The translations under genes and the position numbers were made by a program. A DNA stretch of 59,392 bases from Lachnospiraceae bacterium (lineage in GTDB: Bacteria; Bacillota; Clostridia; Lachnospirales; Lachnospiraceae), in NCBI GenBank assembly GCA_021199235.1, contig JAJQIL010000039.1, positions 10,586 through 69,977 on the forward strand, read 5' to 3'. Position 1 is the first letter of the stretch. Each line of letters opens with the position of its first letter. The notes under the pieces were generated by a model that saw nothing but the letters and a program-made list of their open reading frames with translations, made no database searches and was not told where the DNA came from. This document shows, piece by piece, positions 20,772 through 50,008 of this stretch.

Positions 20772-20799
20772 CGTAACTGTTCAGTACCTTCTCAGTTAC
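20772..20799. repeat. GTAACTGT-type palindromic repeat, copy 1
   Basis: GTAACTG and CAGTTAC arms about 13 bases apart, with TTCAGTACCTTC between them. One of at least five copies in the window (also 23957, 24040, 32433 and 41156), all intergenic. Confidence 0.75.
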
Positions 20800-21340: not shown

Positions 21341-21997
21341 TCAGCGTTTTTTTCGCACAGAAGCCCGGGGTTCCTGCTTCTTCCGCACGCTGAACCCGAA
21401 GCTTCCCAGTGTTTTCCCCAACTCATAGTAGGTGCCGTGGGAATACACCATCAGCTCCGCGTCGTTCAGCCGCAGCTTTCCTTTGTCGTCCAGATAGCGG
21501 TCGTCCACATCGACGCCGAGCACTTCAGCTACAAACATATGATGGGAGCCGAGCTCCAGCACATCCCTGACACGGCACTCGATGTTGACCGGGCTTTCCG
21601 CGATCAGCGGCGCGCCGACGTGCACAGCCGGTATGGCGGTCAGATGCGCTTCTTTGAATTTATCCACGTCACGGCCGGAGCGGACACCGCAGTAATCGGC
21701 AGCCCGCGCCAGTTTTTTCGTCGTCAGATTGATCACAAACTCGCCAGTCTCACGGATGATCGAATATGAATAACGCTCCGGCCGGATGGAGATGGAGACC
21801 ATGGCCGGATTCGTACATACCGTCCCCGCCCAGGCGACGGTAATGATATTGGGGCGTTCTTCAGCAGCACAATGCAAAGCATTCTTTGGATCGCGGCTGC
21901 GTTCTGCCGCCGAAGCTATGCAAGGCCGCGCGCAGCTCACCATCACGGCCGGCAGCGGATAAAGCATGTTGCCGGGCTTCCAGTTCTGTCTGCTCAT
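21341..21997 (-). CDS. Flavin reductase family protein (FMN-binding split barrel) with an in-frame palindromic repeat
   Basis: 218 residues. The opening KPGNMLYPLPAVMVSC and NIITVAWAGTVCTNPAMVSISIRPERYSY are typical of flavoredoxin/FlaRed proteins that bind FMN. Between VSC and RPNIITVAWAG sits about 24 extra residues (RPCIASAAERSRDPKNALH and following) encoded by the repeat at 21862-21936. The ATG lies three bases after the pyrophosphatase stop, so translation is probably coupled. Substrate unknown; oxygen or thiol redox roles are usual in anaerobes. Confidence 0.88.
   Translation of the reverse strand: MSRQNWKPGNMLYPLPAVMVSCARPCIASAAERSRDPKNALHCAAEERPNIITVAWAGTVCTNPAMVSISIRPERYSYSIIRETGEFVINLTTKKLARAADYCGVRSGRDVDKFKEAHLTAIPAVHVGAPLIAESPVNIECRVRDVLELGSHHMFVAEVLGVDVDDRYLDDKGKLRLNDAELMVYSHGTYYELGKTLGSFGFSVRKKQEPRASVRKKR
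21862..21936. repeat. Coding palindromic repeat family A, copy in the flavin reductase gene
   Basis: Shares TCGGCGGCAGAA and CAGCCGCGAT with the cdd copy and keeps the same reading frame, giving SAAERSRDPKNALHCA against SAAECSRDAKNAARCA. GCAGC/GCTGC and GCGGC/GCCGC arms are present. Confidence 0.8.
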
Positions 21998-22000
21998 TTC

Positions 22001-23809
22001 TCACGCCCCCGTGATCTGGCTGATGCCGGTCATCAGAGACGGGATCAGCTGCTTTTTGCGGGAAACCACGCCCTTTAAATAAGCGCTCCCGTTTTCCAGC
22101 TTTTCATGGAAGGATGCGTCAATAATATCCTCAGCGTCTTTTCCAAAACAGATCAGATCCGTCCCTTCCTCTATGATATTCGTCATCATAAAGCAGACCA
22201 TATCCAGCTCTTTTGAGTCGACCAGATTTTTAAGGAATGGTACGATCCGATCCCGGATGCCCTGCAGCTCCTCCGTGCTCATAAACGTGATCTGGCCGAC
22301 GCCGATATTCCGGTCACCCACTTCAAATTTCTTGAAATCCTGATAGCAGATCTCCTCCGCCGTCTTTGTGGAAAGATCGCTGCCCGCGGCAAACATTTTC
22401 TTTGCGAAATCTTCACACTCGATCCCGGCAATCTTTGCCAGCGCATTGGCAGCCGCAACATCCATCGGCGTGCAGGTCGGCGAGCGGAAGATCAGCGTGT
22501 CAGAAAGGATTGCGCTGCACATCAGCCCGGCAATGTCCTCCGGTATCTCAATGCCATTCTCAAAAAACATCTGATAGATGATCGTACAGGTGCAGCCGAC
22601 CGGCTGATTGCGGAAATAGACCGGATTGATCGTCTCCAGCGAACCGAGCCGATGGTGATCGATAATCTCCATGATCTCAGCGTCAAGCACATTATCTACC
22701 GCCTGAGAGACCTCATTGTGATCCACCAGGATCAGATTGCGTTTGCGCACTCCCAGGAGGTTCCGCCTGGAGATCATTCCCACATAGCTTCCGTTCCGGT
22801 CCAGGATCGGGAAATCACGGTAACGCTTTTTGGACATCGTATCGCGGATTTCCTCCGTATAATCGTCGAGACGGAAGGTCAGGAGTTTTTCTTCTTCCCG
22901 CATAAAAAAGCTCACCGGCATGCTCTGGTTGATCAGGCGCGCCACCGCGTAGGTATCCAGCGGCGTCACAATGATCGTGCAGCCCCGCTCTCTGGCCATG
23001 CTCTGGATCGTGCGGGAAACAGGCGCACCAAGGCAGACGACAATGCAGCCCGCCTGCATTTCGATCGCGCAGAGCTGTCCCTCGTACCGGTTGCCAAGGA
23101 TGACCATATCGTGCTCATCTATATAATTCTCCATCACATCCGGGTTGGCCGCGGCGATCACGACCTTACCGTTTTCAAATACACCGTCCGGGTCGCCGAC
23201 GATCATTTCCGCTTCCAGCGTCTCCAGAATGTTCCGATACGGCGTCTTCGCGGTAGAAACGATCGAGCTGGAATACTCCTCCATGTAGGATTTTGCGATG
23301 TCGTTGATCGTGATCAGGCCTTTCAGCTTGTTTTTGGAATTTGTGATCGGAAGGGTAAAGATATTCTGCTCCTGCATCAGCGTCCATGCGCGTTTCAGGG
23401 AAATATTGCTGCGCACGCCCTCGACCTTACGGATTTCCATGTCCTTGACACGCGTTCCTATGTTTTCCAGTAAAATCGGTGCTTTCGCATGAAAACGCTC
23501 CAGCACATACTGGGTCTCCGCGCTGATCCGTCCGGCGCGGGCCGCCACATAATTATAAGACGGCGGCAGGTCGCCCTGCCCCTTAGAAAATTCTTCACCC
23601 TGCCCATCAGAAGGCACTCTGCATTGCCCATCAGAAGAATCTTCACATTGATTCTTCAGGTAAGCGTACGCGATCGCGGAACAGATGGAATCTGTATCCG
23701 GATTTTTATGTCCCACTACGCAGACCGTTCGCTTCCGCTGCTTCTGGCTGCCAGATCCGGCCTGATCTTTTTTTGTCTCTGTCGATGTCATCTTTTCTTC
23801 TTTTGCCAT
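22001..23809 (-). CDS. CBS-type family II (manganese) inorganic pyrophosphatase
   Basis: 602 residues. Hydrolyses pyrophosphate in the cytosol, with nucleotide control through CBS domains. The DHH motifs are VVGHKNPDTDSICSAIAYAY at about 31-50, then IDHH (MEIIDHHRLGS) and the C-terminal DHHA2 region (SRKKQLIP). Two CBS modules flank a DRTGG-like segment at about 110-360. After LKNQ at 54 there are three 8-residue tandem units (CEDSSDGQ, CRVPSDGQ, GEEFSKGQ) that the family lacks. Translationally coupled to the flavin reductase. Pyrophosphate removal suits the nearby nucleotide metabolism genes. Confidence 0.92.
   Translation of the reverse strand: MAKEEKMTSTETKKDQAGSGSQKQRKRTVCVVGHKNPDTDSICSAIAYAYLKNQCEDSSDGQCRVPSDGQGEEFSKGQGDLPPSYNYVAARAGRISAETQYVLERFHAKAPILLENIGTRVKDMEIRKVEGVRSNISLKRAWTLMQEQNIFTLPITNSKNKLKGLITINDIAKSYMEEYSSSIVSTAKTPYRNILETLEAEMIVGDPDGVFENGKVVIAAANPDVMENYIDEHDMVILGNRYEGQLCAIEMQAGCIVVCLGAPVSRTIQSMARERGCTIIVTPLDTYAVARLINQSMPVSFFMREEEKLLTFRLDDYTEEIRDTMSKKRYRDFPILDRNGSYVGMISRRNLLGVRKRNLILVDHNEVSQAVDNVLDAEIMEIIDHHRLGSLETINPVYFRNQPVGCTCTIIYQMFFENGIEIPEDIAGLMCSAILSDTLIFRSPTCTPMDVAAANALAKIAGIECEDFAKKMFAAGSDLSTKTAEEICYQDFKKFEVGDRNIGVGQITFMSTEELQGIRDRIVPFLKNLVDSKELDMVCFMMTNIIEEGTDLICFGKDAEDIIDASFHEKLENGSAYLKGVVSRKKQLIPSLMTGISQITGA
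23576..23647. repeat. 24-base tandem repeat, three units, inside the pyrophosphatase gene
   Basis: Encodes three 8-residue units ending in SDGQ/SKGQ. CTGCCCATCAGAAG (plus strand) recurs in adjacent units. It keeps frame, so copy-number change would only lengthen a loop. Confidence 0.75.
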
Positions 23810-23864
23810 GAAAATTATTCCTCATTCCATACGAACTGTTCGCAAAACGTAATTATTCAGGACA

Positions 23865-23983
23865 GTACCTCGCACTTGCTGCGAGGTACGTATGAAAGTA
23901 TATAACATGTGGGGAAAAGCCCCATCGCGAAGCGATTTTAAATGGGCTTTTCCCTCGTAACTGTGAAGGTACTGAACAGTTAC
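23865..23983. repeat. Composite palindrome block between pdp and the pyrophosphatase, with GTAACTGT copy 2
   Basis: Perfect 10-bp arms GTACCTCGCA/TGCGAGGTAC (23865-23889); AAAAGCCCCAT against ATGGGCTTTT with an inner TCGC-GAA-GCGA (23914-23951); then GTAACTGT/ACAGTTAC (23957-23983). The second and third parts recur together at 32401-32475, so they form one mobile-looking unit. Confidence 0.7.
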
Positions 23984-24039
23984 CGCAAAACATTCAACCC
24001 ATACACAGTTCTTCTTCATCCGATTTTTGTCATCGTTTC

Positions 24040-24082
24040 GTAACTGCTCAGTGCCATAACTGTTCAGCGCCATCACCGTTAC
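24040..24082. repeat. GTAACTG-type palindromic repeat, copy 3 (degenerate)
   Basis: GTAACTGCTCAGTGCC followed by ATAACTGTTCAG and closed by CACCGTTAC, a duplicated and diverged copy about 25 bases from the 3' end of pdp. Confidence 0.55.
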
Positions 24083-24105
24083 GTCCTTTTCAGTCAATCG
24101 GGCGT

Positions 24106-25422
24106 TCACTCCGCCCCCTGCTCGGTCACCCGGGCAAAGATCAGCGGCTTCTTTTCCGGCGCTGTCCTGCCGACTGACACAGCTTCCAGAAAACGCGCTT
24201 TCGCGGCGTCCACCTTTGCCGGATCGGAGGTAAACAGTGTAGCGATCGGTTCGCCTTTTTTCACAGAATCCCCGGTCTTTTTCTTCAGAATAATACCCGC
24301 GAGCGGATCGATCTCGCTCTCCTTCGTCTCGCGTCCTGCTCCGAGAAGCATCGCGGCAATCCCGATTCCCGCGGAATCCATCTTTGTGATATAGCCGCTT
24401 TTTTCTGCCGTCACATCCACTTCTACGGAAGCGCGTCCGAGCTTTTCCGGATGACGGACACATTCCGCGTCGCCGCCCTGTGCCTCGATCATGGCAGCAA
24501 GCTTTTCCAGCGCCGCCCCGGAATTCAGCGCATCCTGCGCCATTTTCCGGCAATGATCCAAATCTCCGTCCCCGGCGAGGTACAGAAGCTGAGAGGCAAG
24601 CGCGAGGCTCACTTCGGTCAAGTCCTTCGGCCCCTGTCCGCGCAGAGTGCGGACCGCTTCCTCTACCTCAAGGGAATTCCCGATCTGGTACCCCAGCGGG
24701 ATATCCATATTCGTGATCAGCGCGGCGATCCGTTTCCCGTTATGTACACCGATCGCCACCATCTTTTCTGCAAGAAGGACAGAGTCCTCGACCGTCTTCA
24801 TGAACGCGCCGCTGCCCGTCTTGACGTCGAGCACGATGCAGTCGCTCCCGGCCGCCAGCTTTTTGCTCATAATGGAAGCCGCGATCAGCGGGATGCTGTC
24901 CACCGTGGCGGTCACATCGCGGAGCGCATACAGTTTTTTGTCCGCAGGCGCCAGGTTCGGCGACTGTCCCGTCACCGCAATTCCTGTGTGCCGCACCACA
25001 TCAAGAAATTCTTCCTTTGAAAGCGAGGTGCGCGTCCCGGGGATGGATTCCAGCTTGTCAACTGTGCCGCCGGTATGCCCCAGCCCGCGGCCGGACATCT
25101 TGGCCACGGTACACCCGCAGGCCGCCACGACCGGTGCGACGATCAGGGTCGTCTTGTCCCCGACGCCGCCGGTGGAATGCTTATCCACCTTCACGCCCGG
25201 CAGATCGGACAGATCCAGCTGCTCGCCGGATTTCGCCATTGCGTCCGTCAGAAGCGCCGTCTCCTCATCCGTCATTCCTTTAAAATACACGGCCATCAGA
25301 AACGCCGACATCTGATAGTCCGGGATGTCGCCCTTCGTGTAGCCTGTGATCATCCATCGGATCTCCTCCTCCGACAGGGCAAGGCCGCTGCGTTTCTTCA
25401 TAATAATATCATACATTCTCAT
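24106..25422 (-). CDS. pdp: Pyrimidine-nucleoside phosphorylase
   Basis: Phosphorolysis of uridine, thymidine and deoxyuridine to base plus (deoxy)ribose-1-phosphate. 438 residues from the ATG at 25422 (GGAGGAAG seven bases before). KVDKHSTGGVGDKTTL is the phosphate-binding signature of nucleoside phosphorylase family II, and SGRGLGHTGGTVDKLESIPG follows. The C-terminal biotinyl-like lobe (KKTGDSVKKGEPIATLF) is present. Last gene of the salvage cluster after deoD, deoB and cdd; its pentose phosphate product feeds DeoB. Confidence 0.95.
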   Translation of the reverse strand: MRMYDIIMKKRSGLALSEEEIRWMITGYTKGDIPDYQMSAFLMAVYFKGMTDEETALLTDAMAKSGEQLDLSDLPGVKVDKHSTGGVGDKTTLIVAPVVAACGCTVAKMSGRGLGHTGGTVDKLESIPGTRTSLSKEEFLDVVRHTGIAVTGQSPNLAPADKKLYALRDVTATVDSIPLIAASIMSKKLAAGSDCIVLDVKTGSGAFMKTVEDSVLLAEKMVAIGVHNGKRIAALITNMDIPLGYQIGNSLEVEEAVRTLRGQGPKDLTEVSLALASQLLYLAGDGDLDHCRKMAQDALNSGAALEKLAAMIEAQGGDAECVRHPEKLGRASVEVDVTAEKSGYITKMDSAGIGIAAMLLGAGRETKESEIDPLAGIILKKKTGDSVKKGEPIATLFTSDPAKVDAAKARFLEAVSVGRTAPEKKPLIFARVTEQGAE

Positions 25423-25462
25423 CAAAAATCTTCCTCCACTAATTGTTACTATTCACGGCCAT

Positions 25463-25954
25463 TTACAGATCTTTCGGTCCGAAATTCAGCGGCAGCAGCT
25501 CTTTCAGCGCATAGCTCTGATAGTCCTGCAGGCTGCGCGCCAGAATGATCCGGAAACTCTCCGGATCGCAGAACTCCGCCATCACCTGCCGACAGACGCC
25601 GCACGGCGGCGCAAAGCTGTCCAGCTCCATCTCCACCTCAGCCTCCGCGCAACGCGCAGCGTTTTTTGCATCGCGGCTGCATTCTGCCGCCGAAGCTTTC
25701 CCCTTCTCATTTTTAGAGTATCCTCCGACGATCGCAATCTGCCGGAAGCTCCGATACCCTTCTGAGACCGCCTTGAAAAAGGCGGTGCGCTCGGCACAGA
25801 CGGTCGGTGTGTAGCTTGCGTTCTCAATGTTGCATCCGAGGAAAATCTGCCCGTCCTCCGTCTCCAGCGCCGCTCCCACAGAAAAATGGGAATATGGCAC
25901 ATAGGCACGCTGCCGCGCCTCGAATGCCATTTTTATCAATTCCTGATCCTGCAT
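25463..25954 (-). CDS. cdd: Cytidine deaminase with an in-frame palindromic repeat insertion
   Basis: Zn-dependent deamination of (deoxy)cytidine to (deoxy)uridine. 163 residues against the usual 130-140. NIENASYTPTVCAERTAFF carries the Cys and catalytic Glu, and PPCGVCRQVM the other two zinc Cys. The excess is about 22 residues between IVGGYSKNEKG and LDSFAPPCG (ASAAECSRDAKNAARCAEAE), encoded by a repeat shared with other genes. The insertion precedes the PCGVC zinc helix, in a surface loop by homology, so activity is likely kept. GGAGATG precedes the ATG. Confidence 0.95.
   Translation of the reverse strand: MQDQELIKMAFEARQRAYVPYSHFSVGAALETEDGQIFLGCNIENASYTPTVCAERTAFFKAVSEGYRSFRQIAIVGGYSKNEKGKASAAECSRDAKNAARCAEAEVEMELDSFAPPCGVCRQVMAEFCDPESFRIILARSLQDYQSYALKELLPLNFGPKDL
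25646..25696. repeat. Coding palindromic repeat family A, copy in cdd
   Basis: Plus strand: CGCGCAACGCGC (nested CGCG-CAA-CGCG), AGCG and a T run, then GCGGCTGCATTCTGCCGC (arms GCGGC/GCCGC). Its core matches the deoB copy over about 25 bases. Confidence 0.85.
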
Positions 25955-26045
25955 CTTACTTCATCTCCTGTTCTGCCAGCGCGAATCATCCCTTTCTGCT
26001 CCGCCTGACATAAATCTCTCCTAAAGCAGAGGGAAATCTGTGCTC

Positions 26046-27248
26046 TCAGCGCTTTACTTCTTTCCAGAAGCTCTTGCCGTCCAGGCTCTCCGGAATGCCG
26101 AACATTTCCAGCACAGTCGCGGCGATATCCGCAAAGCTGCTCCTGGTGCCGATGGAAACGCCCGGCCGCACGCTCTTGCCGTACAGGAGCATCGGCACGT
26201 ATTCGCGTGAGTGATCCGTACCCGGAAATCCGGGATCGCAGCCATGGTCGGCAGTGATCAGCACGACGTCGTCGTCATTTAATTTCTCCATCATCTGCCC
26301 CAGCTGCTGGTCAAAAAGCGTCGCGGCGGCCGCGTAGCCGTCGATGTCGTTGCGATGTCCGTAAAGCATGTCAAAGTCCACCAGATTCACGAAGCAGAGC
26401 CCCGTGAAGTCCTCATCCATCAGGGCCAGCGTCTTGTTCATGCCGTCCTCATTGTCCGAGATCGGCGTCGTGTGCGCGATGCCCTGCCCTGCAAAAATAT
26501 CATTGATCTTCCCGACCCCGTACGTGTCGAAACCGTGCTCCGTCAGGCTCACAAGCATCGTACGCTTCGGAGGGATGAGTGAAAAATCATGACGGTTCCG
26601 GGTTCTCGTAAAATCGGAAGCATTCGTTCCCACAAAGGGCCGCGCGATCACGCGCCCTACGCCGTGCTTTCCCTGCAGGATCGCACGCGCCTTCCGGCAG
26701 TCCTCATACAGCTCTTCGAGCGGTACAACCTCCTCGTGCGCCGCGATCTGAAACACGCTGTCCGCCGAGGTGTACACGATCAGATCGCCTGTTCTCATAT
26801 GCTCTTCGCCGTAATCGCGGATCACATCCGTGCCGGAATACGGCTGATTGCAGAGCACGCCGCGCCCGGTCTGTTCCCGGAACGGTGCGAGCACTTCTTC
26901 CGGAAAGCCCTCCGGATACACCGGCATCGGCTCCGGTGAGATCATACCTGCGATCTCCCAGTGTCCGATCGTCGTGTCCTTGCCCATCGAACTCTCCTGC
27001 AGCCGTCCGTAAGCGGCGATTGGAGATTCCATAGCAGCCGCGCAACGCGCAGCGTTTTTCGAATCGCGGCAGGTCACACCGTCAATATTAAACATCCCGA
27101 ACCGCTCCAGGTTCGGCGTGTCGTAGCGGTCTGATTTTACGATTGAAGCCAGCGTATTGGCTCCGACATCCCCAAACAGATCCGCATCCGGCTCGTAACC
27201 GATGCCGAAGCTGTCGAGGACAATGAGAAATACCCGTTTGATATCCAT
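26046..27248 (-). CDS. deoB: Phosphopentomutase with a short in-frame repeat insertion
   Basis: Converts (deoxy)ribose-1-phosphate to the 5-phosphate. 400 residues, alkaline-phosphatase-fold metalloenzyme: VFLIVLDSFGIGYEPDA with the metal Asp, SMGKDTTIGHWEIAG with the phosphorylated Thr, ITADHGCDPGFPGTDHSREY with metal ligands. After FNIDGV about 15 extra residues (TCRDSKNAARCAAAM) precede ESPIAAYGRLQ, encoded by the same repeat as in cdd. Middle of the salvage cluster. Confidence 0.96.
   Translation of the reverse strand: MDIKRVFLIVLDSFGIGYEPDADLFGDVGANTLASIVKSDRYDTPNLERFGMFNIDGVTCRDSKNAARCAAAMESPIAAYGRLQESSMGKDTTIGHWEIAGMISPEPMPVYPEGFPEEVLAPFREQTGRGVLCNQPYSGTDVIRDYGEEHMRTGDLIVYTSADSVFQIAAHEEVVPLEELYEDCRKARAILQGKHGVGRVIARPFVGTNASDFTRTRNRHDFSLIPPKRTMLVSLTEHGFDTYGVGKINDIFAGQGIAHTTPISDNEDGMNKTLALMDEDFTGLCFVNLVDFDMLYGHRNDIDGYAAAATLFDQQLGQMMEKLNDDDVVLITADHGCDPGFPGTDHSREYVPMLLYGKSVRPGVSIGTRSSFADIAATVLEMFGIPESLDGKSFWKEVKR
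27036..27070. repeat. Coding palindromic repeat family A, copy in deoB
   Basis: GCCGCG and CGCGGC arms enclose CAACGCGCAGCG and a T run. Translated as CRDSKNAARCAA, the same frame as in cdd. It lacks the GCATTCTGCCGCCG half seen in the cdd copy, so it is a shorter form. Confidence 0.85.
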
Positions 27249-32400: not shown

Positions 32401-32475
32401 GAAAAGGCTAATTGTAAATCGGCTTTTTTCTCGTAACAGTGAAGGTACTAAACAGTTAAGGTACTAAACAGTTAA
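32401..32475. repeat. Composite terminator-like plus GTAACTGT-type repeat, copy 4
   Basis: AAAAGGCT...GGCTTTTTT, followed by CTCGTAACAGTGAAGGTACT and AACAGTTAAG, with AGGTACTAAACAGTTA duplicated. Same order of parts as at 23914-23983. It lies just upstream of the cobalamin adenosyltransferase ribosome binding site. Confidence 0.65.
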
Positions 32476-41155: not shown

Positions 41156-41182
41156 ATAACTGTTCAGTATCTTCACATTAAC
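41156..41182. repeat. GTAACTGT-type palindromic repeat, copy 5 (diverged)
   Basis: GATAACTGTTCAGTATCTTC followed by ACATTAAC, matching the consensus at most positions; in the gap after the aminotransferase. Confidence 0.55.
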
Positions 41183-48427: not shown

Positions 48428-49726
48428 CTACAGCACAGACACCGGCACAAGCCAGGTGTTTCTGTTGTAGGGAAGGATCTCATCGCACATACAGAGCACA
48501 ATCCCCGGCTGCACATCCAGATGGAATTTATCCAGAACACCAAAGTTTTTATCCGGATGAGCCGGGGTTTTATTCTTTTTAATCTCGATGGGATAGAGCT
48601 TATCTCCTTCCACAATCAATAGATCCAGTTCTTTTTTGTCTGTATCCCTGTAATAATACAAATCCGGGCGTTTTCCCGCGTTGTAATAGCTTTTTACAAT
48701 TTCCGAAACCACCCAGGTCTCAAAAAAGGCGCCGTCCATGGCCCCGTGCTCCAGCGTTTCCGCATTTGGCCATCTGCAAAGATAAGCAGCCAGTCCGGTA
48801 TCCATAAAATAAATCTTCGGTGTCTTCACCAGACGGCTGGTCACATTCGAGTAATAAGGCCGCAAAATATAGACCACACCGGAGCGCTCCAGAATAGAAA
48901 CCCAGGATTTGGCAGTCGGAGCGGACACACCGATCGCATTTGCAATCTCATCATAACGCAGCTCACCGGAAGTCCGCGCCGCAATAAATACGAGGAAATC
49001 ATAAAATGTACTGAGACTTCCTACCTGTGCAAGATCTTTTATATCACGCTCCAGGTAAGTATTCACATAATCCATATAGTAGCGCTCACGATCCATGTCC
49101 GTCGCTATCAGCTTTGGCATTCCGCCGCGGAAAATCAATCCAAAAATCTGATGGACATTTTTTAATTTGCTGTCTTTCATGCGCTCGCGCAGCGAATCCA
49201 ATGAAGGATGAAACAACTGCGCAGGACGCTCCTCCACTTCTGCCACTGAAAGGCTCGACAGATCAAATACCGCTACCCGGCCTGCCAGCGATTCTGATAT
49301 AGATCCGCCCATCGCGCAGCGATTCTGCATGGGCGGATCGATCTGCCGCCGAGCTTCGCGAGGGGGCGCTTCCATCCGCATCATAGAAAATTTCTGTGAA
49401 CCGGTCAGCCAGTATCTGCCGTTCGCATCTTCTCCATCTAAAGCCGCCTGATCCACGATCCGCTTCATTTCCAGCAGCAGAGAAGGTACACGCTGAAATT
49501 CATCTATCAAAAGCGGTGAACCGTATGTCTCAAAAAACAGCCCCAGGTCCTGCTCCGCCAGTCGACGCGCATTCATATCATCCAATGTGACATATCTTCG
49601 TCCGCTTTCACGCAGCTGATTCAGCATCGTTGATTTTCCTGCCTGGCGCTGTCCACACACCATGACAACCGGATAGTACCTGGAAGCTTCCAGAATCTGT
49701 GCTTCTAAATGTCTTTTTATATACAT
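48428..49726 (-). CDS. ATP-binding protein of the AAA_14/DUF4143 family with a repeat-derived segment
   Basis: 432 residues from the ATG at 49726 (MYIKRHLEAQILEAS); the frame extends to 49828 without a better site. Walker A VCGQRQAGKSTMLNQL, Walker B PLLIDEFQRVPSLL, and a C-terminal DUF4143 part ending with a PD-(D/E)XK-like stretch (KELDLLIVEGDKLYPIEIKK). About 25 residues near 120-145 (PPREARRQIDPPMQNRCAMG) come from a palindromic repeat. Function of the family is unknown; it is widespread in multiple copies and suspected to be toxin- or defence-related. Confidence 0.85.
   Translation of the reverse strand: MYIKRHLEAQILEASRYYPVVMVCGQRQAGKSTMLNQLRESGRRYVTLDDMNARRLAEQDLGLFFETYGSPLLIDEFQRVPSLLLEMKRIVDQAALDGEDANGRYWLTGSQKFSMMRMEAPPREARRQIDPPMQNRCAMGGSISESLAGRVAVFDLSSLSVAEVEERPAQLFHPSLDSLRERMKDSKLKNVHQIFGLIFRGGMPKLIATDMDRERYYMDYVNTYLERDIKDLAQVGSLSTFYDFLVFIAARTSGELRYDEIANAIGVSAPTAKSWVSILERSGVVYILRPYYSNVTSRLVKTPKIYFMDTGLAAYLCRWPNAETLEHGAMDGAFFETWVVSEIVKSYYNAGKRPDLYYYRDTDKKELDLLIVEGDKLYPIEIKKNKTPAHPDKNFGVLDKFHLDVQPGIVLCMCDEILPYNRNTWLVPVSVL
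49302..49356. repeat. Family A-related palindromic repeat inside the DUF4143 ATPase gene
   Basis: Perfect 10-bp arms ATCCGCCCAT (49303-49312) and ATGGGCGGAT (49329-49338), then CGATCTGCCGCCGAGC. Aligns with the cdd copy (CGCAGCG, TGCAT, CTGCCGCCGA in the same order) but is translated in a different frame. Confidence 0.7.
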
Positions 49727-50008
49727 ATCTGAATTTTCCTCCAGCATCCATTTTTCTGCTTTTTCATTTATCATCCATTTCTGTGTTTCGGTAATTCTAA
49801 AATTTAATTTTATTTTATTCGCTTCCAACTATGCTGTCAAGATACAAGAACAATAATTGTTTGAATTTCCTGCACTTCTGTCGATTACCATCCAATGGTT
49901 TTTTCATGCACAATGTCTTAATTTGCTTGCCCCCCCGCTGTTCTATGATATAAAGATAGCATGAGTTCGGGCAGAAACGATATTTTTGATTGGAAGGAGA
50001 AAAAGAAA

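Follow-up and report, generated by a model that had tools for sequence, protein, structure and literature searches.

A palindromic repeat that recurs in unrelated protein genes of a Lachnospiraceae genome is very probably a small non-autonomous mobile element, a reading to which we assign a probability of roughly 0.8. It was noticed in the window, by which we mean the whole 59,392-nt stretch of DNA analysed here, and its intact unit measures 78 nt (26 codons) and contains two hairpins. Such an element would insert at many places, including within genes. As its length is divisible by three and most copies are stop-free in most frames, insertion into a gene would add a loop of 26 residues. The peptide is presumably translated and harmless. 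Movement may proceed via a strand folded into the hairpins and handled by an enzyme supplied in trans, either from elsewhere or since lost.

Copies in the window and across the genome

In aligned copies the unit runs GGAAAYGCCCCCTC..., GGCGGCAG, arm, tip, complementary arm. The first hairpin (GCCCCCTC..CGGCGGC) is conserved, and the second combines a fixed tip, AACGC..GCGTT, with variable 10-nt arms. A sequence-only reading had proposed that one such repeat lies in the flavin reductase-like, cdd and deoB genes of the window, and it is found where that reading placed it: in a repeat comparison within the window, reductase positions 21867-21917 match cdd 25647-25697 at 84% over 51 nt and deoB 27033-27070 match cdd 25640-25677 at 89% over 38 nt, and all three are recovered by R1, a covariance model built from 18 good, hand-picked copies (Table 1). 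The shared repeat therefore stands, but the three inserts are truncated and diverged copies of a longer unit (net +16 codons in cdd, +20 in the reductase and +9 in deoB). R1 also finds a fourth copy in the window, an 80-nt variant read through in frame.

Table 1. Copies of the element and their host genes, in window coordinates
Feature	Position	Strand	Remarks
Flavin reductase-like domain protein, host gene	21341..21997	-	PF01613
Element copy in flavin reductase-like gene	21858..21933	-	Truncated; net +20 codons; R1 45.1 bits
Cytidine deaminase cdd, host gene	25463..25954	-	PF00383
Element copy in cdd	25635..25703	-	Truncated; net +16 codons against G014; R1 52.4 bits
Phosphopentomutase deoB, host gene	26046..27248	-	PF01676; best PDB match 3m8w
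Element copy in deoB	27035..27072	-	Part of second hairpin only; net +9 codons; R1 28.0 bits
AAA_14/DUF4143 protein, host gene of fourth copy	48431..49774	-	Domain models
Fourth element copy, 80-nt variant, within AAA_14/DUF4143 ATPase gene	49296..49375	-	R1 70.9 bits; in-frame read-through
RF02987 GA-cis RNA match opposite fourth copy	49298..49377	+	45.5 bits; gathering score 34.7

Alignment of orthologues, the check that the same reading had called for, shows that the reductase and deoB inserts are absent from most of them. The 20-codon reductase insert occurs in the window and in one other sequence (L186), and the other 25 of 27 aligned sequences lack it, a set that includes L244 at just 27% identity. 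Among the 30 deoB loci listed, from 46 genomes with a match, the same insert is present in four (the source genome and its relatives G008, G014 and G013) and absent from 23; the remaining three (G042, G027 and G039) hold a longer, diverged insert at the identical spot. The nearest named matches of the window deoB are metagenome-assembled genomes of Lachnospiraceae or Clostridiales. The cdd repeat is present in two of 29 sequences (the source genome and G013), at a site that in many other orthologues is a loop of varying length and sequence, and comparison with G014 and G008 gives no clean pair of empty and occupied sites. The cytidine deaminase chain 1mq0 is without this loop, its alignment passing directly from query residue 77 to residue 112.

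Searched with the cdd copy, the source genome (3.47 Mb in 161 contigs) yields 37 matches at E<=1. With R1 there are 116 matches at E<=10, and 93 have E<0.01, a copy number that is a lower bound since 150 of 1974 first-look candidates were scored; the expectation of many genomic copies is thus borne out beyond chance. Applied to 65 stretches of the source genome together with the window, R1 returns 107 matches at E<=1, of which the window contributes four. We analysed 96 of these, excluding ten with E>0.02 and one on the minus strand of L064 (2637-2715, E 0.0028) that overlaps an opposite-strand match. Over 80 named loci R1 gives 11 matches at E<=0.1, one of which, in L265 (22.8 bits), is a doubtful match from outside the close group. 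At E<=1e-4 the model, which is fitted to the variant found in the source genus, matches 21 of 116 relatives, the source genome included, all from its own genus (47 genomes), and none in the 64 other genera sampled.

The alternative that these inserts are ancestral variable loops with a chance likeness draws on insert positions, such as that in cdd, that vary in length between species. Similar DNA nevertheless stands at dozens of unrelated places, antisense and outside genes as well, and relatives have empty sites, and we give this alternative almost no credence.

Several longer variants in the source genome (L067, L073, L098, L094 and L125) are extended by a segment lying between the element's two halves; in the first three this segment reads as DIPPEGRGCHPARAER or similar. 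Such variants suggest a mosaic build from hairpin modules. Another locus (L114, about 2500-2785) contains a tandem array of units in one ORF, broken by a run of N.

Insertion sites and candidate mobilisers

Twelve sites with intact copies were compared with three relatives (G008, G013 and G014), and ten were comparable, having an alignable relative that lacks the full element. At eight of the ten (sites 0, 4, 6, 9, 10, 12, 13 and 22) the occupied allele exceeds that of one or more empty relatives by exactly 78 nt; for site 6, two relatives out of three deviate from 78 nt. The other two comparable sites, 3 and 19, are complex, and of the remainder site 20 has no aligned relative and site 27 only an occupied one. 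Occupancy differs from site to site: G008 is occupied at site 10 with G014 and G013 empty, G014 at site 12 with G008 and G013 empty, and G013 at site 4 with G008 and G014 empty. In genome G033, two copies on the same contig, separated by about 4 kb (L129 and L149), are identical at 74 of 74 element positions and agree at 8 of 34 flanking ones. At sites 4, 10, 12 and 22 the flanks are 92-99% identical in relatives that share the insertion against 87-91% in empty ones, the occupancy of G008 at site 22 being taken from coordinates only. Because relatives sharing an insertion have the closer flanks, exchange of occupied alleles between species may account for part of the spread.

Insertion against empty sites in relatives, of exactly 78 nt at eight of ten sites, is shared with miniature elements (MITEs) such as ERIC, NEMIS and RUP, which are likewise described as short, non-autonomous, hairpin-forming and dispersed. 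Some MITEs are reported to carry ORFs fused to genes (PMC2229807). The present repeat appears to differ in that the inspected copy sequences reveal no terminal inverted repeats at the ends of the 78-nt unit, and that the analysis turned up no parent insertion sequence.

Direct duplication across the junction was scored in 51 of 68 copies, after orthologous, compound and tandem ones were dropped (55 with tandem copies kept). At an offset of 78, which was known beforehand, there are 293 identities against 261 expected, a value reached in 0 of 3000 permutations, and six other offsets show no comparable excess. These duplications are short, weak and mostly imperfect, the longest measuring 10, 9, 8, 7, 6 and 6 nt. 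The 3′ flank favours TGnnGA, and in two loci (L133 and L140) a further unit follows directly after the copy with the same period.

Two small hairpins would suit a REP/IS200-type element moved as single-stranded hairpins by a Y1 (RAYT) transposase, and 25 of the 47 genus genomes have a match to the Y1 family PF01797, the one in the source genome being fragmentary and near a contig end. Against a RAYT or IS200 enzyme as the general mobiliser, five copy-rich genomes (G013, G031, G036, G039 and G042, with 34-39 element matches each) have no PF01797 match, and three others (G022, G025 and G044) have a good Y1 match and no element at E<=1e-4. Already weakened on these grounds, this origin seems to us improbable. 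A reverse transcriptase was rejected as mobiliser too, PF00078 being present in 34 of 47 genus genomes and not in G013. That genome, listed as 100% complete and holding 35 element matches, has no match to either family, although a gene lost or missed in assembly is possible; no mobilising enzyme was found. Carriage by phage was likewise set aside, as no viral contig contains either of two exact first-hairpin patterns, the only patterns used.

Reading frame and host genes

Coding flanks were called with a coding-potential score trained on the long ORFs of these stretches, at a cut-off of 8 per 240-nt flank. On this score 47 of the 96 copies have coding flanks on one strand; 43 of these are in frame, three show apparent frameshifts and one contains a stop, which agrees with the claimed in-frame location in unrelated genes. 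The other 49 of 96 fall outside this class (30 with one clearly coding flank, 16 noncoding and three unscored). Counted by ORFs of at least 110 aa, among which short ones may be spurious in a GC-rich genome, 81 of 96 copies are intragenic, 61 sense and 20 antisense. Hosts identified by family models include phosphoribosylformylglycinamidine synthase (PurL), PriA, porphobilinogen synthase (HemB), ArgJ, an OppD-like ATPase, a PBP1A-like protein, an M32 carboxypeptidase and glycosidases of the GH31 and GH2 types, with alanine racemase and a HemD fusion as antisense hosts. Some of these genes are usually essential.

Assigned at the tip of the second hairpin, the frame is the same in 30 of the 43 in-frame copies. 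Among the 37 in-frame sense copies this favoured frame occurs 30 times against 15.3 expected from open frames (p ~1e-6), and the other two frames together seven times; it is open in 63 of 68 copies, the other two sense frames in 47 and 42. The preference holds in 83-nt matches (17 of 22 in-frame copies) but is not seen in variants of 78-82 nt (one of eight), several of which shift frame at an internal indel. Some shorter variants begin in the favoured frame and leave it at such an indel. The consensus peptide of the favoured frame, VETPPRCASAAGRAGHAENASRLAGA, has many small residues and almost no charge (net charge +1), and those of the other two sense frames have net charges of +6 and +9. Selection, rather than targeting, would explain the favoured frame.

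Openness itself comes mainly from base composition, with a mean of 4.32 of six frames open against 4.06 in shuffles. Outside the arms, third codon positions are not more variable (0.61 bits, compared with 0.66 and 0.74), which suggests that it is the DNA rather than the peptide that is conserved; peptide-level conservation was rejected for want of an excess of variation there.

Alternatively, the insert might be removed after transcription or skipped in translation, by splicing or ribosome bypassing, leaving the protein unaltered. This would suit the hairpins, the precise unit length and the location of copies inside usually essential enzymes. Removal or skipping would work without an open frame, yet among the 47 copies with coding flanks on one strand 43 are open and in frame, and the truncated copies in the window persist with net gains of 9, 16 and 20 codons; we consider this alternative very unlikely.

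As a probable mobile element that would add peptide, the repeat appears to work like the Rickettsia palindromic elements, which are described as small palindromic repeats lying in frame inside unrelated, often conserved genes and also between genes (PMC2229807, PMC10969869, PMC3767692). One of these three papers reports that a guanylate kinase with a Rickettsia insert is translated and active, with a changed substrate affinity. The sequence-only reading had drawn this parallel, and it extends to behaviour, in that a palindromic repeat lies in frame in unrelated protein genes, but not to length and architecture. The Rickettsia elements are described as 105-146 bp long and as having terminal inverted repeats and a long stem-loop (PMC2229807), whereas the present unit has 78 nt, two separate hairpins, variable arms and ends that are not inverted repeats, and resides in Lachnospiraceae. 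In PARCEL repeats, palindromic DNA also encodes repeats within proteins, there described as tandem domains, mainly of membrane proteins and lipoproteins (PMC2996958), whereas here most insertions are single and in unrelated enzymes. In-frame palindromic insertions are known from Rickettsia and Wolbachia and, more loosely, from some MITEs (PMC3767692, PMC2229807). Dozens in a Firmicute, with empty sites in close relatives, would show that the addition of peptide loops to enzymes is independent of intracellular life, and this addition could be tested in ordinary laboratory hosts.

Paired arms and the opposite strand

The second-hairpin arms vary among copies yet remain Watson-Crick complementary. 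Over 15 pairs in 18 copies, 93.3% of cells pair, against 76.6% when shuffled and at most 46.7% when slid, which confirms the palindromic structure first read from the window. Of the ten arm pairs in these copies, eight change on both sides, giving 45 double changes and zero one-sided changes to another standard pair; of 14 unpaired cells, seven fall in the innermost arm pair. The number of further pair types in the 18 copies is not above that of shuffles (287 of 500 as high). For the first nine arm pairs, a set of 68 copies, biased to well-kept ones (40 from the source genome with an 83-nt match and 28 from relatives found by a near-consensus pattern), gives 612 cells, of which 562 are Watson-Crick, 6 are G-T and 44 are mismatched in other ways. 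Between non-orthologous copies whose cores differ at no more than five positions, both sides of an arm pair differ in 210 cases, 198 of them between two Watson-Crick states, and a single side differs in 29, in comparisons that are non-independent. The PurL copy and a copy in G008 (L128), for example, differ at 2 of 54 core positions and have largely different arms, each perfectly paired.

Settled copies seem to mutate normally: eight orthologous pairs differ at 1-2 of 83 bases, and two of them show a single one-sided arm change. From these normal changes in resident copies we infer that the paired changes arise at copying. The copying step might write both arms of the hairpin from one template, an arm sometimes being replaced as a unit and part of it possibly taken from the target. 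Arm and core differences increase together (a mean of 2.3 arm differences at 0-2 core differences), and some near-identical cores carry identical arms; because of this correlation we hold the proposal of paired rewriting tentatively, at odds well short of even. Arms taken wholly from the target were rejected, as the excess of words shared between the right arm and the 5′ flank is small (p 0.003), owes most to two tandem copies and to the offset-78 duplication, and gives no general rule. The paired arm change is a clear, testable puzzle. If true, paired rewriting together with a stop-poor, tolerated 26-codon unit would amount to a new mobility route and would continually supply Lachnospiraceae with new protein loops.

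The opposite strand of the element belongs to the same sequence family as GA-cis (RF02987), which Rfam files as an RNA (type Gene; sRNA). In the window only the fourth copy passes the gathering score, the other three falling below it. A scan of 20 of the 65 loci of the source genome gives 26 GA-cis hits above the gathering score, each opposite a copy of the repeat (42 R1 matches in these loci). The sequence-only reading had supposed elements of the Rickettsia kind to be undescribed in Lachnospiraceae. The sequence of this one was already in Rfam, as the opposite strand, and the supposition holds for its behaviour: in open-licence literature, by titles and the starts of abstracts, we found no description of in-frame palindromic insertion in this family, and GA-cis itself appears there only as a table row in the Rfam 15 paper. 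Elsewhere in the source genome, a different Rfam family, the skipping-rope RNA (RF02924), matches L087:6440-6519 at 60.2 bits.

Across the family, GA-cis matches at E<=0.001 occur in 31 of 397 genomes, the source genome included (29 over the cut-off), and in 28 of 334 genera, some in tandem; at most ten candidates were scored per genome, so copy numbers are lower bounds. None was found in 14 control genomes. The best hits in ten genomes of other genera lie mostly between genes: nine of the ten have no spanning ORF of at least 250 aa, and at all ten the GA-cis strand is co-directional with the next ORF (>=100 aa). The next genes are unrelated (cysteinyl-tRNA synthetase, ribosomal protein L2, transporters, a racemase and two without a Pfam family).

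These ten loci, and the position of all 26 hits opposite copies of the repeat, would also fit a cis-regulatory or small RNA, in which the opposite strand folds into a pair of hairpins and acts in mRNA leaders and the intragenic copies are decayed or accidental. For 61 of the 81 intragenic copies of the source genome, however, the GA-cis strand is antisense to the ORF and would hence be absent from the host mRNA. The unrelated next genes, and arm pairs that are Watson-Crick with few G-T, also argue against an RNA function, and we judge it an improbable account of the repeat. The distribution fits a dispersed Lachnospiraceae element of which the source genus has a short, stop-poor variant in genes; in contrast to the RNA that Rfam files, the repeat lies here mainly inside ORFs, as an open 26-codon unit. 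On this view, the covariation of at least one Rfam family may have its source in mobile DNA, with consequences for the inference of structured RNAs.

Two further repeats accompany the element. A second dispersed repeat of the source genome (L067:7120-7212, L325-L336), GGCGCTAAAC..GTCCACTGGAC..AGCGCC, gives 48 matches at E<=0.01 and is read as SAPLRSALNDRPLDDQRP in some ORFs. Its arms vary but appear complementary by eye, and three loci (L067, L104 and L117) have this repeat fused to the 78-nt element at the 5′ end of the latter. A short repeat, GTAACTGTTCAGTACC, and its variants lie in the window at 20773-20788, 23968-23983, 24040-24055, 32444-32475 and 41156-41171, the first three positions being intergenic. 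It has six matches with at most two mismatches, in both orientations, against 0.01 expected.
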